Shown: positions 1,036 to 28,652 of the stretch, one piece after another
Numbering within the stretch: position 1 is the stretch's first letter
Layout: the number at the start of each line of letters is the position of its first letter
Assembly: GCA_020060625.1 (NCBI GenBank)
Contig: JAGUZU010000010.1
Span: forward strand, 1 to 37,490
Direction of reading: 5' to 3'
Origin: Anaerolineales bacterium
GTDB taxonomy: Bacteria > Chloroflexota > Anaerolineae > Anaerolineales > Villigracilaceae
Length of the DNA stretch: 37,490 nucleotides
Notes under the pieces: generated by a model
Told to the model about the DNA's origin: nothing
The model's database searches: none
The model's input: only the letters and a program-made list of their open reading frames with translations
Position numbers and translations under genes: made by a program

Positions 1036-2763
1036 ATGACAGCGCTTGCACCTACAACCCCCTGGGTCGCGGGTAAGAAGGACGATTACCGCGCCTGCCC
1101 CGTGACCACCCTCAAAGTGGACATGCACGCCGAACGCCTGATCATCGCCAACGCGGTGATGGCGGTGGTCTGCCTTTTGCTGGGCGGCATCGCGGCTTTG
1201 TTGATTGCCCTCACCCGCTGGCAGGCGATCCACCTGCTGGACGCCAAATGGTTCTATAGTCTGCTGACCCTGCACGGCATTGACATGCTCGTGGCGTGGA
1301 TCGTGTTCTTTGAAATGGCGGGCTTGCACTTCGGCTCGACCGCCCTGCTGAATGCGCGTCACGCCGCGCCGAAACTTGCCTGGTTCGGCTTTATCCTGAT
1401 GGTCATCGGCGGTTTGATGGTCAACGTGGTGGTGTTGTTCGACGCGAACAGCATTGTGACGTTCACCGCCTACGTGCCGCTCAAGGCGCACCCGCTCTTT
1501 TACCTGAGTTACATCCTGTTCGCCGTCGGCGCGTTGATTCAGGTCATCACCTTCTTCATCAACATTGTGGTTGCGAAACGCGAGAAGCGCTTCGAAGGCT
1601 CGCTGCCCCTCGCGGTCTTCGGCTTGATGACCGCCGCCATCCTCGCGGTGTACACCCTTTTGCAGGGAGCCGCCGCCATTGTGCCGGCTTTCTTCTGGTC
1701 GCTGGGCATCCTTGCGAATTACGACCCTGGAATTTATCGCAACTTCTTCTGGGGCTTTGGGCATCCCGCACAGCAGGTCAACCTTGCCGCGATGGTTTCC
1801 ATTTGGTACATGCTCGCGCAGATGACAGTCGGCATTCGCCCGTTGAACGAGAAGTTCTCGCGCCTCGCCTTCATCCTGTACCTGTTCTTCATCAACCTCG
1901 GTTCTGCCCACCATCTGTTGGTTGATCCCGGTCTCACGTTCGCGTGGAAAGCCGTCAACACTTCGTATGCCATGTACCTTGCCGTGCTTGGCTCGATGAT
2001 GCACGCCTTCTCGATCCCCGCCGCGATGGAAGTGGCGCAGCGCGCCAAAGGCTACACCAAAGGACTCTTTGGCTGGCTCCGCAACGCCCCCTGGGGCGAG
2101 CCGGGCTTCGCGGGCTTGGTCATGTCCATGGTGATCTTCGGCTGGATCGGCGGCATCACCGGCGTGACCATCGGCACGGAGCAGATCAACATGCTGGCGC
2201 ACAACACCCTGCGCCTGCCCGGTCACTTCCATGCCACCGTCGTCGGCGGCACGACCACCGCGTTCATGGCGTTCACCTACTACGTCATCCCGCTCATCTT
2301 CCGCAAGGAACTCAAACTCAAGAAGTGGGCGCAGTGGCAGCCGTACGTCTTCGGCGGCGGCACCGCCCTCGTTTCACTGGGCATGATCACCAGCGGTCTG
2401 CAGGGCGTCGCCCGCCGCAATTGGGACATCACCTTCGCGGGCGTCGTCCCCGGCACCGTGGACCTGACCCTTGCCATCTTCGGCATCGGCGCGTTGATCG
2501 CAGTGACCGGCGGCATCATGTACCTGACCATCGTGCTGGTCTCCGTCTTCACCGGTCCGCGCATGGAAGCGGGACAGATGCTGCTCATCGGCGGCAGTGA
2601 GAATCCCCTGCTCGAATCCACCAAACTGACCGACGAGCAGATGGAACATCCCAAGAACCAGCCCAAAGGCACGCTCGTTTTGGTCTTTGCCTTCCTCGTC
2701 TGGTTTGCGATTTACTATCTCAGCAATTGGTGGCTGCTCGGACGCACCTGGTTCATTCGGTAA
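1036..2763 (+). CDS. cbaA: Heme-copper oxidase subunit I, B-type-like, lacking the helix-VI tyrosine
   Basis: This is a polytopic protein of 575 residues if started at ATG 1036, which sits 7 nt behind AGGAG; an in-frame ATG at 1030 is too close to that site. With that numbering the low-spin heme ligands are H80 (LTLHG) and H399, the high-spin heme ligand is H397 (PGHFH), and the CuB ligands are H243 and H292-H293. In oxygen reductases of types A and B the first CuB His is followed four residues later by a Tyr covalently bound to it. Here the motif is GHPAQQ, with Q247 at that place. No Tyr sits at the type-C position six residues before the HH pair; the nearest is Y282, ten before. The rest aligns best with ba3 oxidases. 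Oxygen reduction is therefore uncertain: loss of this Tyr is the mark used for NO-reducing branches of the superfamily. Copper and heme binding are well supported. Confidence 0.92.
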   Translation: MTALAPTTPWVAGKKDDYRACPVTTLKVDMHAERLIIANAVMAVVCLLLGGIAALLIALTRWQAIHLLDAKWFYSLLTLHGIDMLVAWIVFFEMAGLHFGSTALLNARHAAPKLAWFGFILMVIGGLMVNVVVLFDANSIVTFTAYVPLKAHPLFYLSYILFAVGALIQVITFFINIVVAKREKRFEGSLPLAVFGLMTAAILAVYTLLQGAAAIVPAFFWSLGILANYDPGIYRNFFWGFGHPAQQVNLAAMVSIWYMLAQMTVGIRPLNEKFSRLAFILYLFFINLGSAHHLLVDPGLTFAWKAVNTSYAMYLAVLGSMMHAFSIPAAMEVAQRAKGYTKGLFGWLRNAPWGEPGFAGLVMSMVIFGWIGGITGVTIGTEQINMLAHNTLRLPGHFHATVVGGTTTAFMAFTYYVIPLIFRKELKLKKWAQWQPYVFGGGTALVSLGMITSGLQGVARRNWDITFAGVVPGTVDLTLAIFGIGALIAVTGGIMYLTIVLVSVFTGPRMEAGQMLLIGGSENPLLESTKLTDEQMEHPKNQPKGTLVLVFAFLVWFAIYYLSNWWLLGRTWFIR

Positions 2764-2822: not shown

Positions 2823-2919
2823 TGTCATTGCGAGAGCGGAGTTTTTCCGCTCGAAGCAATCCCCGCAAACGAGGAGACTGCTTACCCATTCGGGTACGAT
2901 GTCGTTCCTCGCAGTGACA
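2823..2919. repeat. MITE-like palindromic repeat, copy 1
   Basis: The ends are TGTCATTGCGAG and CTCGCAGTGACA, nearly inverted copies, with internal GAAGCAAT and a degenerate second half. Two better-kept copies lie at 6140-6235 and 35139-35217. The last base of this copy is the A of the ATG that opens the next gene. No transposase is encoded, so it is a non-autonomous or REP-like element. Confidence 0.75.
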
Positions 2920-3605
2920 TGGCGATTTACAGGTACATGATGCTTGCCTCTTTTCTTCTCGGTCTTCTTGGCAGTCTCGGTCATTGTGTGGGGATGTGCA
3001 GCGCCGTGATCGTCATTTTTGATCGCCAGCCCGTTTTCCAAAACAAATTCGCTTGGGCTTTCGCGCACGCGGGGCGCGTCACCACGTATTCATTGCTCGG
3101 TCTTGTTTTCGGCGCGTTCGGTCAGACCCTCTTCGCGTTCGATAAACTGCAAGCCGCGCTTTCCATTCTCTTCGGAATTATCGCTTTTTATCTTGCCTCC
3201 GCATTTATTGGGTTGACTCCCTCGCCCGAACTTTTATTCTCCGGCTTGACCCAACGCTGGGGACGCGCCATTCGTGGATATAAACCCGCTTCGCGACTCA
3301 GCCCGTACCTGCTCGGTCTCCTGTGGGGATTTCTCCCCTGCGGTTTGGTCCTGACCGCGCTCATTGCCGCGATGGCTTCTGCAAACGCATTCCTCGGCGC
3401 GTTGACCATGTTCATTTTCGGCGTTGCCACCATCCCCAGTTTGTTCGCCGTCAAATGGCTGGCAGGCAAATCGCTTTCCCGCATCTTCTCCCGCGGACTG
3501 GCTTCGCTGGTAATGATGCTCTTCGGCTTTCAATTCGCCATGCGCGGATTTGCCTCACTCGGCTGGGTCGAGCATTTTATGCTGGGTTCGTTTATGTTTT
3601 GGTAG
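2919..3605 (+). CDS. DsbD/TauE-like membrane protein, probable oxidase or copper maturation factor
   Basis: This 228-residue protein has about six membrane helices and two cysteine motifs in helices: GHCVGMC near the N-terminus and LPCGL in the middle. This pairing is typical of the DsbD_2 / sulfite-exporter TauE-like family that accompanies ccoI and cbb3 oxidase genes in many bacteria, where a part in metal or thiol handling during oxidase assembly is proposed. Its position between the oxidase genes and a CcoI-type copper ATPase supports the same role; the exact substrate is unknown. ATG 2919 overlaps the end of a repeat and has no Shine-Dalgarno sequence. The tandem ATGs at 2937 and 2940 are credible alternatives that still leave the first helix intact. 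Confidence 0.8.
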   Translation: MAIYRYMMLASFLLGLLGSLGHCVGMCSAVIVIFDRQPVFQNKFAWAFAHAGRVTTYSLLGLVFGAFGQTLFAFDKLQAALSILFGIIAFYLASAFIGLTPSPELLFSGLTQRWGRAIRGYKPASRLSPYLLGLLWGFLPCGLVLTALIAAMASANAFLGALTMFIFGVATIPSLFAVKWLAGKSLSRIFSRGLASLVMMLFGFQFAMRGFASLGWVEHFMLGSFMFW

Positions 3606-3620
3606 GTAAAGTGCGCGGGT

Positions 3621-3697
3621 AAACAGGTAAACAGGTAAACAGGTAAACAGGTACACAGGTACACAGGTAAACAGGTAACACGTAACACGCAACACGC
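3621..3697 (+). repeat. 8-bp tandem repeat array
   Basis: Seven units of AAACAGGT or ACACAGGT run without gaps from 3621 to 3676. Three 7-bp units (AACACGT, AACACGC, AACACGC) follow up to 3697. The array fills the gap between the TauE-like gene and the copper ATPase, whose ATG starts three bases later. Copy number may vary between strains. Confidence 0.9.
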
Positions 3698-3700
3698 AAT

Positions 3701-6139
3701 ATGGAACTAATCAACTACCAAACTACCAAACTAACTTCCACTTGCTCGCTGTGCGGATTGACAACCATGCATCCGCTCACGAACCAAGTAGGCGATGTAT
3801 TCTGCTGTCCATCGTGCAGGGAGGTGGCGGCGCTTCTGGCTGAGAATCCAGCCGGGGAGCGGGAGCAGGCTCAAGTCAAGGGAGAGGCGCAGAACGTCAC
3901 GCTGACTCTTGGCGGGATGTGGTGTTCATCCTGCGCGTGGCTGGTGGGCGAGGGACTCAAACGCACCAAGGGCGTGGTGGATGCGGAAGTGAATTTCATC
4001 CAGCATCAGGCAAACATTACTTACGATACATCGCTCACCAATCACAAATCTCTGAAGAAGCGCGTTCGCTCGCTGGGGTATCAAGCCACATTGCCGAACG
4101 AAAAGCCGCGCGATGAAGAGGAATCGTTTTTCACGCGCCTGCTGATCGGCGGCGTGATGGTGCTGCATGACATGGTCGTCGGCGCGGGGATTTACGGGCG
4201 CGAACTTTTGGGGTGGGCGTCGCCTGAAACGCAATGGCTGGTGGATTTTTTCCAGATCATGATGCTGGCGACGAGCATTCCTGTTTTGCTGTTATTGGGC
4301 TTACCGATTTTGCGCGCAGGGTTTGCCAGTCTCCTGCGCGGACAACCGAACATCCACACGCTCATCACAATTGGAACGTTTTCAGCGTTCGGGCTTTCGG
4401 TGCGAAATTTGATCGTGGGGCATGGCGGTTTGTATTTCGATACGGCGACGATGCTCATCTTTTTGGTCTCGGTCGGGCGCTGGCTCGAAATGCAGGCGCA
4501 CAAATCCAGCAACAAGGCGGTGTCGCGGCTGTTGGAGCAAATTCCAAATACAGCGACGGTGGTGACGGATGATGCCGATAAAACCGTGAACGTCTCGGAA
4601 CTTCAGCCCGGGATGCGCGTGCGCGTGCGCCCCGGCGAACGCTTCCCTGTGGATGGATTGATCGCACTTGGCGAAGGCGATGTGGATGAGTCCCTGCTGA
4701 CGGGCGAACCGAGACCGATTACCCGCCGCGAAGGCGAGAAGGTGCAGGCTGGCACGATCAACCTCGACGGAAGTTTTGAAGTGATTACCACAGCAGTGGG
4801 AGATTCGACGACAGCGGGGCAGATCGGGCGGTTGCTGCACGAAGCCCTGTGGGCGCGCTCCCCGCTCGAGCGCCTCGCGGATAAACTCTCCGCGTGGATG
4901 ACTCCGATTGCGCTCGCGCTGGCGGCGATTGCCTTCCTAATCTGGAATTCTATTTCTGGCGTTGAAACTGGCTTGATGGTGGCGCTTTCTGTATTGCTGA
5001 TCGCCTGTCCGTGCGCGCTGGGGCTGGCAACTCCGCTGACGTTGTGGCTGTCTCTGGGGCGTGCGGCAGAATCGGGCGCGATCCTGCGAAGCACATCCGC
5101 GCTGGAACGGCTGGCAAAAGTAGATAAGGTCTTCTTCGATAAGACAGGCACGCTGACACAGTTGCCGATGAAGGTGAAAAACATGTTTGTTCCCTCACCC
5201 CTAACCCCTCTCCCAGAGGGAGAGGGGAACGGCTCCCTTCTCCCTCCGGGAGAAGGGCTGGGGAAAGTGCCCCGCAGGGGTATGAGGGTGAAAGAATTCC
5301 TTCAAATCGTCGCTTCCATCGAAAACGAGTCGGAACATCCTCTTGCCAAAGCCATTGTGGAATATGCCAAAGAGAATCAAACAGAACTCATCAAACCCGA
5401 ATCTTTCAAAGCATTGCCCGCGCTTGGAGTGATCGGCGATTTACGATTTACGAATTACGATTTACGAATTTCCATTGGCTCGGCGCGGTTGATGTCTGCC
5501 GAGGGGTTGGAGATGCCGCAGGAAATCAGTCAACAGGCAGAGGCGTGGAAAGAGGCGGGGCTGGTCGTTGTCTATTCCGGCTGGGACGGGCAGGTCAAGG
5601 GGATCGTGGGGCTGGGCGAGACAGTCCGCGCGGAGGCAAAGGATGTGGTGACTGATTTGCAATCGCGCGGGCTGGATCTTGGCGTGTTGACGGGCGACGA
5701 CTCCAGTGCGGGCGAACGCTGGCAGAAGACCCTGGGCATCCCCGTGCAGGCGGCGCTCACGCCCGATGAAAAGATGAACCGCCTGGCGGAGAATGCCGCG
5801 ATGGTCGGCGACGGTATCAACGATGGTCCCGCGCTCGCCGCTGCGACGGTTGGCTTGGCGATGAATCACGGCACGGACGTGGCGCGTACCGCCGCCGACA
5901 TCGTGCTGATGCGCGACGATTTAAAGGTCATCCCCTGGCTGGTGGATCTGTCACGCGAGTCAATGAAACGTGTGAAACAGAATTTGGGCTGGGCGGTCAT
6001 CTACAACGTGATCGGAGTCGGGCTGGCGATGGCTGGCTTGTTGCAGCCCATCTTCTCTGCATTCGCGATGATCGCCAGCAGTATCTTCGTTACAACCAAT
6101 GCAATGAGGATGAATAAATTTCCACTGCTGGAAAAATAA
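3701..6139 (+). CDS. ccoI: Cu+-exporting P1B-1 ATPase of CcoI/FixI type
   Basis: The 812 residues show the full order of a copper ATPase: an N-terminal Cys-rich domain (CSLCG at 15-19, CCPSC at 35-39), an HMA domain with GMWCSSC (72-78), TGEP (334-337), the membrane CPC (436-438), the phosphorylated D480 in DKTGT, the HP motif (546-547) and GDGIND (703-708). MxxSS in the last helix region (790-794) fits Cu+ transport. The CcoI/FixI branch loads copper for assembly of heme-copper oxidases rather than detoxifying it, which fits the neighbouring oxidase. Two insertions look repeat-derived: residues 498-529, a G/C-rich palindrome between DKTGT and the HP motif, and residues 579-590, an AT-rich direct repeat. 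Both lie in the nucleotide-binding domain and keep the frame. The start codon follows a tandem array without a ribosome site, but the first CxxC forces a start close to it. Confidence 0.93.
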   Translation: MELINYQTTKLTSTCSLCGLTTMHPLTNQVGDVFCCPSCREVAALLAENPAGEREQAQVKGEAQNVTLTLGGMWCSSCAWLVGEGLKRTKGVVDAEVNFIQHQANITYDTSLTNHKSLKKRVRSLGYQATLPNEKPRDEEESFFTRLLIGGVMVLHDMVVGAGIYGRELLGWASPETQWLVDFFQIMMLATSIPVLLLLGLPILRAGFASLLRGQPNIHTLITIGTFSAFGLSVRNLIVGHGGLYFDTATMLIFLVSVGRWLEMQAHKSSNKAVSRLLEQIPNTATVVTDDADKTVNVSELQPGMRVRVRPGERFPVDGLIALGEGDVDESLLTGEPRPITRREGEKVQAGTINLDGSFEVITTAVGDSTTAGQIGRLLHEALWARSPLERLADKLSAWMTPIALALAAIAFLIWNSISGVETGLMVALSVLLIACPCALGLATPLTLWLSLGRAAESGAILRSTSALERLAKVDKVFFDKTGTLTQLPMKVKNMFVPSPLTPLPEGEGNGSLLPPGEGLGKVPRRGMRVKEFLQIVASIENESEHPLAKAIVEYAKENQTELIKPESFKALPALGVIGDLRFTNYDLRISIGSARLMSAEGLEMPQEISQQAEAWKEAGLVVVYSGWDGQVKGIVGLGETVRAEAKDVVTDLQSRGLDLGVLTGDDSSAGERWQKTLGIPVQAALTPDEKMNRLAENAAMVGDGINDGPALAAATVGLAMNHGTDVARTAADIVLMRDDLKVIPWLVDLSRESMKRVKQNLGWAVIYNVIGVGLAMAGLLQPIFSAFAMIASSIFVTTNAMRMNKFPLLEK
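5192..5287. repeat. In-frame palindromic element inside ccoI
   Basis: It begins CCCTCA and ends TGAGGG and contains two perfect hairpins: CCCCTCTCCC / GGGAGAGGGG (5205-5227) and CCCTTCTCCC / GGGAGAAGGG (5235-5257). Translation gives PSPLTPLPEGEG and LPPGEGLGK, not part of the ATPase fold. A related element sits in the same orientation and initial reading frame at 7447-7525. Confidence 0.85.
5438..5470. repeat. AT-rich repeat-derived stretch inside ccoI
   Basis: Three near copies of GATTTACGA and one of GAATTACGA follow each other within the ATPase frame and encode GDLRFTNYDLRI. The surrounding gene is much richer in G+C. This looks like a short intergenic-type repeat tolerated in a surface loop of the nucleotide-binding domain. 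Confidence 0.6.
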
Positions 6140-6255: not shown

Positions 6256-8364
6256 ATGACTCACAATCTTTACGCTCGACGCAAAACCCTGCGCGCCTTC
6301 GAAAAACTTTGGACGAAACTCGAAGGTCTCGTCAACCGCTTCACCAAATCGGATTTCAACCCGTTCTACCACCTCGGCACGTTGACCATCTTCATGCTGC
6401 TGCTGTTGATCGGCACGGGAATCTATCTCACCGCCATCTATCGCCCCGGTCTCGATGTCGCCTACGCCACCGTCGAAAAAATAGACTCCAACTGGTTTGG
6501 CTCGCTCATGCGCAGCATCCATCGCTACGCCTCCGATGCGATGATCCTGCTCATTGTCCTGCACCTGCTGAAAATGCTGTTCAGCGACCGCTACTGGGGT
6601 CAGCGTTGGCTGGCATGGACAAGCGGGTGGATTATGCTTGCAACCACATGGCTGGTCGGCACGATGGGCTACTGGCTCATCTGGGACGAACGCGCGCAAT
6701 GGATGACCGAATACATGATGAACACGCTTGCCGGCACGTCGGGTCTCACCTACGTCGCGGCGGATATCGAATCGCGCACCTTCTCCAACTTCGTCATCAT
6801 CCTCTTTCTGCACGTCTTCCTGCCGCTGATCGGATTCCTCGGCATTTACATTCACGGCTTGCGTCTCTCCCGCGCGCGCTGGTGGTCGCCGCGCTGGGTC
6901 AGTGCGCAAGCCATCGTCGGGCTGGTGATCCTCTCGCTCATCAAACCCGCCATGTCCGCCGCGCCCGCCGACCTTTCGCGCCTCGTCGAATCCACGCCGA
7001 TGGACGCCTACTATCTCGGCTTCCTTCCGTTGATCGACGCCTGGGGAAACGTGATCTTCTGGGGACTGGCGATCCTCGTCGGTGGGAGTCTATTCCTGCT
7101 CCCCTGGCTCGCCTCGGGTCGTGACCTGGGACCTGCTTTTGTGACCGATGAGCAGTGTACCGGCTGTAACATCTGCTACGCCGAGTGTCCGTTCGACGCC
7201 ATCCGCATGGTCACCAGGGACGATGACTCGGGCTATCAAAAATTAGCCATCATCAACGCCGCGCAATGTACGGGATGCGGCATCTGCGTGGGATCATGTC
7301 CCACCGATGCGATTGACATGGCAGGCGGTTACAACAACGAACAGGTCTTCAACGCGATCAAGGGCGCGCTGCATCGTGAAAAGAAGGAAGGCAATCCTGT
7401 TACGGTCTTGTTTGCCAGCCACCGCGACGAGGCATTGGGCGGTCTACCCTCACCCCTGCCCCTCTCCCAAAGGGAGAGGGGTCTGAATCCCCTTCTCCCT
7501 TTGGGAGAAGGGTTAGGGATGAGGGAAAATCCCCCCGTCTTTGTCTCAACATGGAATGGAAATACGCGCGTCGTCACCGCAGTATTGCCGTCTGCGGGCG
7601 CGGTCAACATCGAGTGGATCAAATCCCTGCAAAGCGAAGGCGCGCGCGATGTGGTTATCCTGGCGCATCCCTACGACGACGGCGTGTACCGCGAAGACGC
7701 GCATTGGATTTCGAGCCGCCTGCATTTGCGCCCGGCGCTCGTCCGCGAGGGATTGCACTGGCTGGAGACCACGCCCGGCGATGCGAAGACGGTGGAAAGG
7801 TTCCTGAACGATTTGCACAAGTCTGAAACGCAAACTGCGAAACAGCCGCCCGCTCTGCCGCCCGTGAAGGAACGGAACAAGTTGATCCCTTCGCTGGTGA
7901 GCGGTTTGGTCGGGACGATTTTATTGCTCGGCATGTTCGCGCTTGCGTTGCCGCTGGACATTCCCGCCGGGATGCAAGCCGCGCAAGGAAGCGCATTGCG
8001 CGTGGCGGTGGATGCAAGAGGGAAAATTTCGTCAGCGAATATCCCCGAAGGCGTGACCCTGCCCGAAGGCGCGGACGCGGAGAAGATCTTCGGCGGCACG
8101 CATTTCCCCATTTCGGTGCGCGTGCTGCTGGACGGCGAAACCGTCCTCGATGAAACCTACAAACCGTCGGGGCTGAGCGGCAACGGGCGCATCTCCACGT
8201 TGGAGTTTTTGCAGATCGCGCCGGGCGCACATCAGGTCGAGATTTTCATCAAGGACGACGACGGCGATTTCCGTTTGGCTTATTCGGGGGAGGTCAATTT
8301 TGAAAAGGGACGGACGCTCATCCTGGCATATGATGAGGGCGCGGATGTGTTTGTGAAAAGGTGA
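6256..8364 (+). CDS. Cytochrome b / 2x[4Fe-4S] / MvhD-like fusion membrane protein
   Basis: A 702-residue fusion. Residues 30-230 form a cytochrome b N-terminal half with two His pairs, H89/H103 and H186/H200, each 14 apart as in bc1-type cytochrome b. More helices follow to about residue 286. Two classical ferredoxin motifs come next: C301, C304, C307, C311 and C338, C341, C344, C348. Residues about 381-521 resemble the MvhD iron-sulfur subunit of heterodisulfide reductase systems, but the Cys positions look replaced (SAG, AH and DDG where MvhD has Cys). A further helix (544-566) and an outer domain end the protein. It probably moves electrons between the quinone pool and a cytoplasmic carrier such as ferredoxin; this is inference. 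No Rieske protein or cytochrome c is nearby. Residues 398-424 come from an inserted palindromic element. No clear ribosome site precedes ATG 6256. Confidence 0.85.
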   Translation: MTHNLYARRKTLRAFEKLWTKLEGLVNRFTKSDFNPFYHLGTLTIFMLLLLIGTGIYLTAIYRPGLDVAYATVEKIDSNWFGSLMRSIHRYASDAMILLIVLHLLKMLFSDRYWGQRWLAWTSGWIMLATTWLVGTMGYWLIWDERAQWMTEYMMNTLAGTSGLTYVAADIESRTFSNFVIILFLHVFLPLIGFLGIYIHGLRLSRARWWSPRWVSAQAIVGLVILSLIKPAMSAAPADLSRLVESTPMDAYYLGFLPLIDAWGNVIFWGLAILVGGSLFLLPWLASGRDLGPAFVTDEQCTGCNICYAECPFDAIRMVTRDDDSGYQKLAIINAAQCTGCGICVGSCPTDAIDMAGGYNNEQVFNAIKGALHREKKEGNPVTVLFASHRDEALGGLPSPLPLSQRERGLNPLLPLGEGLGMRENPPVFVSTWNGNTRVVTAVLPSAGAVNIEWIKSLQSEGARDVVILAHPYDDGVYREDAHWISSRLHLRPALVREGLHWLETTPGDAKTVERFLNDLHKSETQTAKQPPALPPVKERNKLIPSLVSGLVGTILLLGMFALALPLDIPAGMQAAQGSALRVAVDARGKISSANIPEGVTLPEGADAEKIFGGTHFPISVRVLLDGETVLDETYKPSGLSGNGRISTLEFLQIAPGAHQVEIFIKDDDGDFRLAYSGEVNFEKGRTLILAYDEGADVFVKR
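7447..7525. repeat. In-frame palindromic element inside cytochrome b fusion gene
   Basis: It begins CCCTCA, ends TGAGGG and carries two hairpins built on CCCCTCTCCC / GGGAGAGGGG and CCTTCTCCC / GGGAGAAGG. It encodes PSPLPLSQRERG and PLLPLGEGLG inside the linker of the MvhD-like domain. It is a diverged copy of the element at 5192-5287. Confidence 0.85.
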
Positions 8365-27310: not shown

Positions 27311-27724
27311 ATGCAGATTACCCGACAAGCAGATTATGCCGTCCGCGCCGTGTTGCACCTCGCCCAAAACAGCGACCAGCGCACAGCGACGAGCGCCATC
27401 GCCGAAGAACAGCGCATCCCGCCGTCCTTTCTGGCAAAGATCGTTTCACAGCTATCCATCGCGGGGCTCCTGCACACCTCACGCGGCGCGCGCGGCGGCG
27501 TCACCCTCGCGCGTGATCCCAAAGACATCACCCTCCTCGAAGTCATCGAAGCCATCGACGGTCCCATCCAACTCAACGAATGCGTGGGCGATACAGGCAC
27601 GTGCTTCTTCGAGGATGACTGTCCCCTGCGCCCGGTGTGGTGCGAGGCGCAGGAGGAACTCGTCACGCGGCTTAAAGGCACGAACTTCGCAGCCATGCTG
27701 GAAAAAGGACAGACCGCCGTCTAA
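27311..27724 (+). CDS. Rrf2-family regulator with probable Fe-S cluster
   Basis: 137 residues. The winged helix starts MQITRQADYAVRAVLHLA, with recognition region PSFLAKIVSQLSIAGLLHTSRG. C91, C98 and C104 follow, close to the IscR spacing (x5 instead of x6 in the first gap), with a further C111. Rrf2 proteins with these Cys bind [2Fe-2S] or [4Fe-4S] and sense iron-sulfur status, NO or redox state. GAGG lies 5 bp before the ATG. Its targets are not evident; an IR of TAATCA / TGATTA upstream (27249-27277) may be its own operator. NO sensing would link it to the oxidase locus, but this is speculative. Confidence 0.9.
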   Translation: MQITRQADYAVRAVLHLAQNSDQRTATSAIAEEQRIPPSFLAKIVSQLSIAGLLHTSRGARGGVTLARDPKDITLLEVIEAIDGPIQLNECVGDTGTCFFEDDCPLRPVWCEAQEELVTRLKGTNFAAMLEKGQTAV

Positions 27725-27742
27725 TTGCGCAAACATGCCATT

Positions 27743-27775
27743 GCCTCTCGGCTATAATTGCCGGGAGGCTTTTTC
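27743..27775 (+). terminator. Terminator of the Rrf2 gene
   Basis: GCCTCTCGGC (27743-27752) pairs with GCCGGGAGGC (27760-27769) with one G-U pair, followed by TTTTTCATTTT. The loop happens to be TATAATT. Confidence 0.82.
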
Positions 27776-27800
27776 ATTTTCAAACCCAAGGATGGATACC

Positions 27801-28652
27801 ATGAAACGACAACGCGGACCATTTGCCGCAATGCTCCTTTTGATGACTGCCCTTGCATGTGTCGTGCCGGGATTGTCAACCGCATCGCAACCCGTGCCGA
27901 CGCCTGATACACGACTTGGCACGATGGTCGCTGAAACCGTTTCCGCCGCCCTCGAATTGACCCTGCAAGCCGTACCCACGTCCACACTCCCGCCAACCCC
28001 CACCCCCGAACCGACCTTCACGCCCACCCCGCAGGTTGTTCCCGCGGGAAGCGCGCTCACGAAAAATGACGATGGTTTCATCACTTTCATTGATATGAAA
28101 GGAGGCTATCAGTTCGCCATTTCGGATGCCTGGCTCCCCCTCCGCATCAACGAGCAGGAATTTTTGGATGCCTGGCTTTTACCAATCGCTTCCGATCCCG
28201 CCTTTCAACGCCTTCTCGGCAGCGTCCAAAACCAGGACCCAGCCCGCTTCCGCCTGTTCGCCGTCGATGCAAACGAGGAACACATCGACGGCGGCTTCGT
28301 GACCAACATCAACTTCCTTTGGGAAGACCAGGAGGAACTCTCGCTGGAGGACAGCGACGGGCTGACACAAGTCGCTGACGCGCTTCCCGATTCCCTGCCC
28401 GGCATAGAAGTCCTTGCCATCCAGATCAACACGCTCGAAGATGCCACGCCCTTCGGGGTCATCACGTCGCGTCTGCCCGCCACCACACTAGACGGTGAGG
28501 ACGTGGTGATTGCCCAGAAACAGGTTTTCTTCGATCTGCCCGTCGGCACGTTGGTCGTCACCCTCTCCACTACCGAGACCTGGCAGGAGACCATCGAGCC
28601 GTCCTTCGATGAAATGATCGAAACGTTCACTTTTGTTAAAACGGGAGAATAA
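27801..28652 (+). CDS. Lipoprotein with Thr-Pro linker, unknown function
   Basis: 283 residues from ATG 27801 (AAGGA 8 bp before it); an in-frame ATG at 27792 overlaps that site. The lipobox TALAC ends the signal peptide. A spacer with [14 protein letters not shown] follows, then a domain of about 200 residues with [23 protein letters not shown] and a closing [19 protein letters not shown]. This start and end are like the small PsbP/LpqN-type domain, but the match is weak. The product is anchored outside the cell. It lies 5 bp before hutU, so co-transcription is likely, although a joint role is not evident. Confidence 0.78.

Follow-up and report, generated by a model that had tools for sequence, protein, structure and literature searches.

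The protein encoded at positions 1036-2763 of the window, the 37,490-nucleotide stretch of an Anaerolineales bacterium contig analyzed here, is very probably subunit I of eNOR, an NO reductase that stands near the B family within the heme-copper superfamily. To judge from its sequence, it belongs to an already described family rather than a new one, as the Gln in its active site, the cupredoxin subunit II, and its occurrence in Anaerolineales match published eNOR. The less expected part of the locus appears to be a neighbor, a cytochrome b/4Fe-4S protein (6256-8364), whose distribution suggests that it may be a dedicated electron-input partner delivering electrons to CuA enzymes, both eNOR and B-type. 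The genes of the window described below lie on its forward strand. The source genome comprises 3.67 Mb in 155 contigs and is 98.25% complete, and its closest named relatives belong to the Anaerolineales (phylum Chloroflexota).

Active Site of Subunit I

The gene for the catalytic heme-copper subunit (1036-2763) encodes 575 aa and matches PF00115 at 211.6 bits. Translation of the ORF gives H80, the stretch G242-H243-P-A-Q246-Q247, H292, H293, H397, and H399, and the six His residues among these (H80, H243, H292, H293, H397, and H399) make up the complete ligand set of the low-spin heme, the high-spin heme, and CuB. The best PDB sequence matches of subunit I are ba3 (B-type) chains, 7deg, and in an alignment with the ba3 oxidase sequences the Tyr column falls on Q247, encoded by the CAG codon at 1774-1776. 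The cross-linked helix-VI Tyr that marks A- and B-type enzymes, four residues past the CuB His, is absent from subunit I, with Gln247 in its place. Both the translation and the ba3 alignment therefore bear out the original prediction, which held that all His ligands are present and that Gln replaces the helix-VI Tyr.

In helix VII, the position six residues ahead of the HH pair, where we take the cross-linked Tyr of C-type enzymes to lie, is occupied by Ile286. The invariant Tyr282 lies ten residues ahead of HH, approximately one turn from Ile286. Y258 and S320 are retained in subunit I, and His323 aligns with what is presumably the K-channel Thr of ba3, according to a numbering that we assume.

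A sequencing error at the Gln247 codon was considered and rejected. A search of genome contigs returned 34 related loci, 27 of them from Chloroflexota at 83-96% identity and the remaining seven, titled Nitrospinota/Nitrospinales, Nitrospirae, or Kiloniellaceae, at 50-57% identity. Gln-Gln is read in all 26 intact Chloroflexota copies checked, which use all four combinations of CAA and CAG, and the 27th copy (L030), although frameshifted further on, still reads GHPAQQ. Comparison with three of these intact copies gave dN/dS values for subunit I of 0.05, 0.09, and 0.14. Since the Gln is constant in 26 of 26 relatives while its codons vary, the possibility of an error, which the original prediction had raised, is excluded.

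Assignment to the eNOR Family

A subunit I panel of 85 rows was drawn from stop-to-stop ORFs of at least 380 aa with a phmmer E-value below 1e-4, leaving out L002, L003, L030, L042, and L045 (duplicates or, for L030, frameshifted). The panel splits into 47 rows with Gln247 and 38 with Tyr247; because L025 and L110, as well as L001 and L063, are identical over the core, 46 of the 47 Gln rows and 37 of the 38 Tyr rows are distinct. All 47 Gln rows, the window copy included, have H80, E93, H243, Q246, N249, Y258, Y282, H292, H293, Y311, H323, E332, and H397 in common. Among the 38 Tyr247 rows, E93 and N249 each occur in one, Q246 in five, and Y282 and H323 each in two, and the helix-VIII residue Y311 is found in none.

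A tree was built from 48 of these rows, hand-picked for spread, with the trait columns omitted. In this tree, which was drawn without labeled sNOR, gNOR, bNOR, nNOR, cNOR, or qNOR sequences and without a literature-labeled eNOR accession, all 23 Gln rows form one clade (99/99). Its sister group, joined at 100/99, consists of a sequence that reads GHTLQY (L112) and four second subunits without HH, a position next to eNOR that is unsure since the program warns of long branches meeting around them. The 16 B-type rows form one clade (99/98) next to the Gln clade and its sisters, and four A-type rows serve as the outgroup. Nesting inside bona fide oxygen reductases, which the original prediction had named as evidence against itself, was not seen in the 48-row tree, and the protein instead stands beside the Tyr-bearing B family. 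The Foldseek ranking for the subunit I model opens with B-type chains, while in a second fold comparison A- and B-type subunits I score alike (Z 32.0-34.2 among the 50 matches listed), and hence the fold does not decide the family. The model has low confidence near the active site (pLDDT 52-66 for residues 281-320), in the stretch that holds both Tyr282 and Tyr311, either of which may come close to the site.

The literature connects these features with eNOR. Subunit I of eNOR is recognized by Gln at the Tyr position (PMC8756737); the same source gives Tyr at this position for oxygen reductases and, in Table A4, Glu for cNOR and qNOR, Asn for sNOR and bNOR (formerly CuANOR), and Asp for gNOR. 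With Gln247 and a CuA subunit II, the window enzyme has neither the active-site Glu and lack of CuA of cNOR and qNOR, nor the Asn of sNOR and bNOR, nor the Asp of gNOR. An Anaerolineales MAG is also reported to have eNOR directly preceded by a cupredoxin subunit II (PMC8756737). Both PMC8756737 and PMC4653789 cite Hemp and Gennis (2008) for the family, which is stated to be biochemically characterized as an NO reductase (PMC11388526).

No difference was found between the window subunit I and eNOR, which likewise has Gln for Tyr, the full His set, and a directly preceding CuA subunit II, occurs in Anaerolineales, and lies near nir genes in some genomes. The primary paper on eNOR is reportedly that of Murali et al. 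in 2024. The window enzyme also resembles the B family (ba3-type) in that its subunit II has one helix, that a probable small subunit IIa goes with it, and that, in this taxonomic order, both have a cytochrome b/4Fe-4S neighbor of the same kind. However, the B family has the motif H-x-x-V-Y-x-W where eNOR has H-x-x-Q-Q-x-N, and the E93, N249, Y311, and H323 of eNOR stand against I/L/A/T, W, L/N/F/M, and T in 27 B-type-like rows. Both bNOR and sNOR share a CuA-type subunit II, NO reduction, and the absence of the Tyr with eNOR but differ by the Asn; cNOR and qNOR also reduce NO but differ by the Glu (PMC8756737, Table A4 for both residues) and by heme c or quinol input in place of CuA.

The residues specific to the Gln rows could also be read as signs of an O2 reductase in which Tyr311 of helix VIII (47/47 Gln rows vs. 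0/38 Tyr247 rows) or Tyr282 of helix VII (47/47 vs. 2/38) replaces the helix-VI Tyr, and such a switch of helix has a precedent in C-type oxidases (PMC3084760). This is highly unlikely, as descent alone would yield clade-specific residues, NirS or NirK genes lie near eNOR in relatives, and the family has been reported as a characterized NO reductase (PMC11388526). In addition, the genome already has two Tyr-bearing subunits I: three subunits I pass the PF00115 cut-off, of which eNOR is the only one without the Tyr, the copy on C124 being B-type (GHPLVY) and that on C111 being A-type.

NO and Denitrification Context

The source genome encodes NarG twice, NirK once, and NirS once at full length, all over their cut-offs; a second, partial NirS match of 27 bits also passes the Pfam cut-off. 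A search for NosZ with a single model, TIGR04246, gave only cupredoxin-sized partial matches, the best of which scored 56 bits (cut-off 625). From the presence of NarG, NirS, and NirK and the lack of NosZ with this one model, the bacterium is predicted to release N2O. PF05940 (NnrS) has no match in the genome, and the controls are equally without a match. An internal TAA stop interrupts one of the two NarG matches, and the stretch between the nar genes contains two weak PF00115 pieces that stay under the cut-off (G000:C147:15633-19262 and 27496-28176).

In relatives of three phyla, NirS is encoded approximately 1-6 kb from eNOR. A Chloroflexota locus (L110, on the same contig as L025) has a NirS with 85.8% identity to that of the source genome approximately 6 kb from eNOR, and the DNA between the two encodes a Crp-type regulator and a PilJ/HAMP sensor kinase. 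In a Nitrospirae locus (L033), NirS (55% identity) and the small ORF are less than 1 kb apart, and the NirS of a Kiloniellaceae locus (L031; 49% identity) lies approximately 5 kb from eNOR. A NirK split over two ORFs is found near eNOR in L111, and in Ardenticatena maritima eNOR and NirK share one operon (PMC4653789). Two plasmid copies of eNOR in Thermus adjoin the genes of a ScdA_N (DUF542) protein and a regulator of the Rrf2 family.

Across 201 genomes of the order, the co-occurrence of eNOR with NirS or NirK is modest: one or the other is found in 13 of 20 eNOR genomes vs. 62 of 181 others (p 0.013, ignoring kinship). Within the bacterium's own family the corresponding counts are 10 of 11 vs. 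9 of 15, which is not significant (p 0.18). These sets were read by hand, with NirS counted at approximately 80 bits or more and NirK over its cut-off, and at these thresholds seven of the 20 eNOR genomes have neither gene, one of them (G122) being the genome with the split NirK.

These seven genomes are consistent with a heme-copper enzyme that binds or detoxifies NO and has another product or substrate, for example through NO dismutation or mixed NO/O2 activity, rather than serving as a respiratory NO reductase, and a divergent role is left open in PMC8756737. There is little chance that this is so, given that publications assign the family to NO reduction and that nir genes lie near eNOR in relatives from three phyla. 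Least tenable of all is an undescribed family with CuA: four NCBIfam models match without any reaching its cut-off, but the diagnostic residue, the subunit II arrangement, and the occurrence in Anaerolineales are those of published eNOR (PMC8756737), and thus of the original prediction of an NO reductase or undescribed member with CuA input, the first part is the best reading and the second falls away.

The most likely role of the eNOR, as read from the genome, would be to reduce NO supplied by the cell's own nitrite reductases, NirS and NirK, to N2O. Electrons would pass from a donor to CuA, then to the low-spin heme, and on to the site formed by the high-spin heme and CuB, where two NO would be joined to give N2O and water. 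Without a Tyr at position 247, this site would miss the usual fourth electron and proton for O-O cleavage. Relatives of the gene carry the annotation of cytochrome c oxidase subunits, yet here it marks a likely N2O producer.

Subunit II, the Small ORF, and Copper Genes

Subunit II is encoded at 507-1025, immediately upstream of subunit I as in published eNOR, and has a single N-terminal membrane helix, read by eye, followed by a CuA cupredoxin domain. It was identified from the alignment and from a match to TIGR02866 of 39 bits, which is below the cut-off of that model. The CuA motif CNEFCNLGHHTM (966-1001) aligns with those of relatives, and the full CuA site that had been predicted is present as H119, C154, C158, H162, and M165. 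A subunit II gene occurs in all 34 related loci, including all 27 from Chloroflexota.

Further upstream, the ORF at 330-491 encodes a 53-aa single-helix protein. With tblastn this small ORF turns up in every one of the 27 Chloroflexota loci, and weak matches of 27-33% occur in L034, L035, L036, and L038. The Nitrospirae locus (L033) has one weak match, to the small ORF of Defluviimonas, and tblastn detected none in L031 or L039. The annotations of Defluviimonas, Thermomicrobium, and Thermus likewise place small ORFs directly ahead of the subunit II gene. Where subunit II of a B-type oxidase has one helix, a small subunit IIa goes with it (PMC3128077), a description that the 53-aa protein fits, and it is therefore a probable third subunit of the subunit IIa kind.

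Downstream of subunit I lies a gene for a DsbD_2 family membrane protein (2919-3605; PF13386, 132 bits), a probable helper in copper or cytochrome assembly that is present in 26 of 27 Chloroflexota loci and missing from L032. It is followed by a copper-translocating P-type ATPase with an HMA domain (3701-6139), the adjoining copper ATPase of the original prediction, which matches TIGR01511 at 477 bits (cut-off 397) and TIGR01525 at 512 bits. The ATPase gene adjoins eNOR in most of the Chloroflexota loci that extend far enough. Together, the ATPase and the DsbD_2 protein may load the copper sites of the enzyme.

Between the DsbD_2 and ATPase genes, a tandem array at 3610-3686 has an 8-bp period and GGTAAACA-like units in seven overlapping 29-nt copies. 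Similar short palindrome-rich stretches, CCCCTCTCCC...GGGAGAGGGG, then CTTCTCCC...GGGAGAAGGG, are found at 5201-5320 and 7456-7590, where they sit in frame within the copper ATPase and cytochrome b genes.

The Cytochrome b/4Fe-4S Neighbor

The protein encoded at 6256-8364 (PF00033, Fer4, and Fer4_7) combines a cytochrome b, two 4Fe-4S motifs, a tail resembling HdrA2 and FlpD, one further helix, and a C-terminal domain. Two heme His pairs (H89/H103 and H186/H200) and eight Cys are conserved, and the motif CxxCxxCxxxC is present twice. The His pairs are like those of bc-type cytochrome b, and relatives of the protein have a 4Fe-4S and FlpD region that resembles the C-terminus of HdrA2. In contrast to both of these systems, the parts are fused in one protein encoded beside eNOR or B-type oxidases, and the matches to the NCBIfam models listed are below cut-off. 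The HdrA2 model gives 54 bits, far below its cut-off and over the ferredoxin (4Fe-4S) part only. FlpD passes the Pfam cut-off in four relatives (L095, L033, L111, and L059) and not in the window copy, the tail of which is therefore called FlpD-like by descent only. The predicted structure has low confidence (mean pLDDT 68), and its matches are all cytochrome b or b6 chains among the 50 of 1066 that were listed.

Within the 201 genomes of the order, the cytochrome b/4Fe-4S gene occurs in 33 of 36 that have an eNOR or B-type subunit I vs. three of 165 others, which suggests a dedicated electron-input protein. These counts, read by hand, extend to an E-value of 2e-28; four genomes with matches at 8e-22 to 6e-21 and no eNOR or B-type match were left out, and with them the second count becomes seven of 165. 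The candidate partner shares a contig with the subunit I gene, at a distance of no more than 15 kb, in 16 of 20 eNOR cases and 20 of 26 B-type cases. Seventeen of these 26 B-type places were inspected for the Tyr motif, including L059, and all 17 have it. In the source genome itself, L059:10135-14228 encodes a B-type oxygen reductase followed by a paralog of the cytochrome b/4Fe-4S protein with FlpD and a terminal cytochrome c domain.

The gene is found in 21 of the 27 Chloroflexota eNOR loci. Three of the six others (L007, L019, and L024) end before the place is reached, and the remaining three (L010, L012, and L032) are without the gene within 7-8 kb downstream. A cytochrome b relative also lies downstream of eNOR in six of the seven distant loci, the seventh (L031) ending too early. 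Three of these copies (L033, L038, and L039) show the 4Fe-4S motifs; in L035 and L036 the motifs are out of view because contig ends cut the copies, and they are missing from the 322-aa cytochrome b beside eNOR in L034. An eNOR cluster on a Defluviimonas plasmid likewise has the fused form, and the annotations around the Thermomicrobium and Thermus eNOR copies include no cytochrome b/4Fe-4S gene. The three Chloroflexota loci without the gene, the L034 copy without the motifs, and the Thermomicrobium and Thermus clusters weigh against a partnership with eNOR.

Among the titles and abstract openings listed by a literature search, none describes this pairing with eNOR, and a single ORF with cytochrome b6, 4Fe-4S, and FlpD domains is named in an appendix table of PMC8756737. 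If the protein is the electron donor of eNOR, as proposed here, a further electron route into NO and O2 reductases becomes testable. A more far-reaching proposal, put forward tentatively and on balance rather doubtful, is that eNOR and B-type oxidases share this cytochrome b/4Fe-4S/HdrA2-FlpD-like donor, which would feed CuA without a Rieske-type complex III, and, more boldly, that Tyr311 would be a third location of the active-site Tyr after helix VI (A- and B-type) and helix VII (C-type). The source genome also encodes the C-terminus of a bc-type cytochrome b (PF00032), which counts against a Rieske-free chain.

Variants and Other Lineages

Several relatives of the locus carry a second heme-copper subunit I-like gene, placed directly 3′ of eNOR in L111:4770-6347, L113:2646-4094, and L114:3742-5157, and after the apparent eNOR sister in L112:6707-8206. 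These second subunits have lost the CuB histidines of helix VII, with PY in three and LY in one in place of HH, and have kept the other ligand His residues and GHxxQY. The four form one clade with long branches.

The apparent eNOR sister itself (L112:8222-9880) has Gln at +3 and Tyr at +4 (GHTLQYTN) and retains HH. A CuA subunit II of its own accompanies it, and NirK genes flank it on either side. It is a possible intermediate between B-type enzymes and eNOR, although on a long branch.

Four of the distant loci (L034, L035, L036, and L038) belong to MAGs titled Nitrospinota/Nitrospinales and contain eNOR with subunit II. A 2024 survey reports that norBC is absent from all Nitrospinota genomes analyzed there, and the phrase "nitric oxide reductase" is missing from its main text (PMC10839748). 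The relatives described here place eNOR in MAGs of this phylum. In Thermus thermophilus, two plasmid copies of eNOR (L097:8983-10668 and L098:9025-10707) read GHFK, with Lys in place of the low-spin-heme His that is present in the 83 other rows of the panel.
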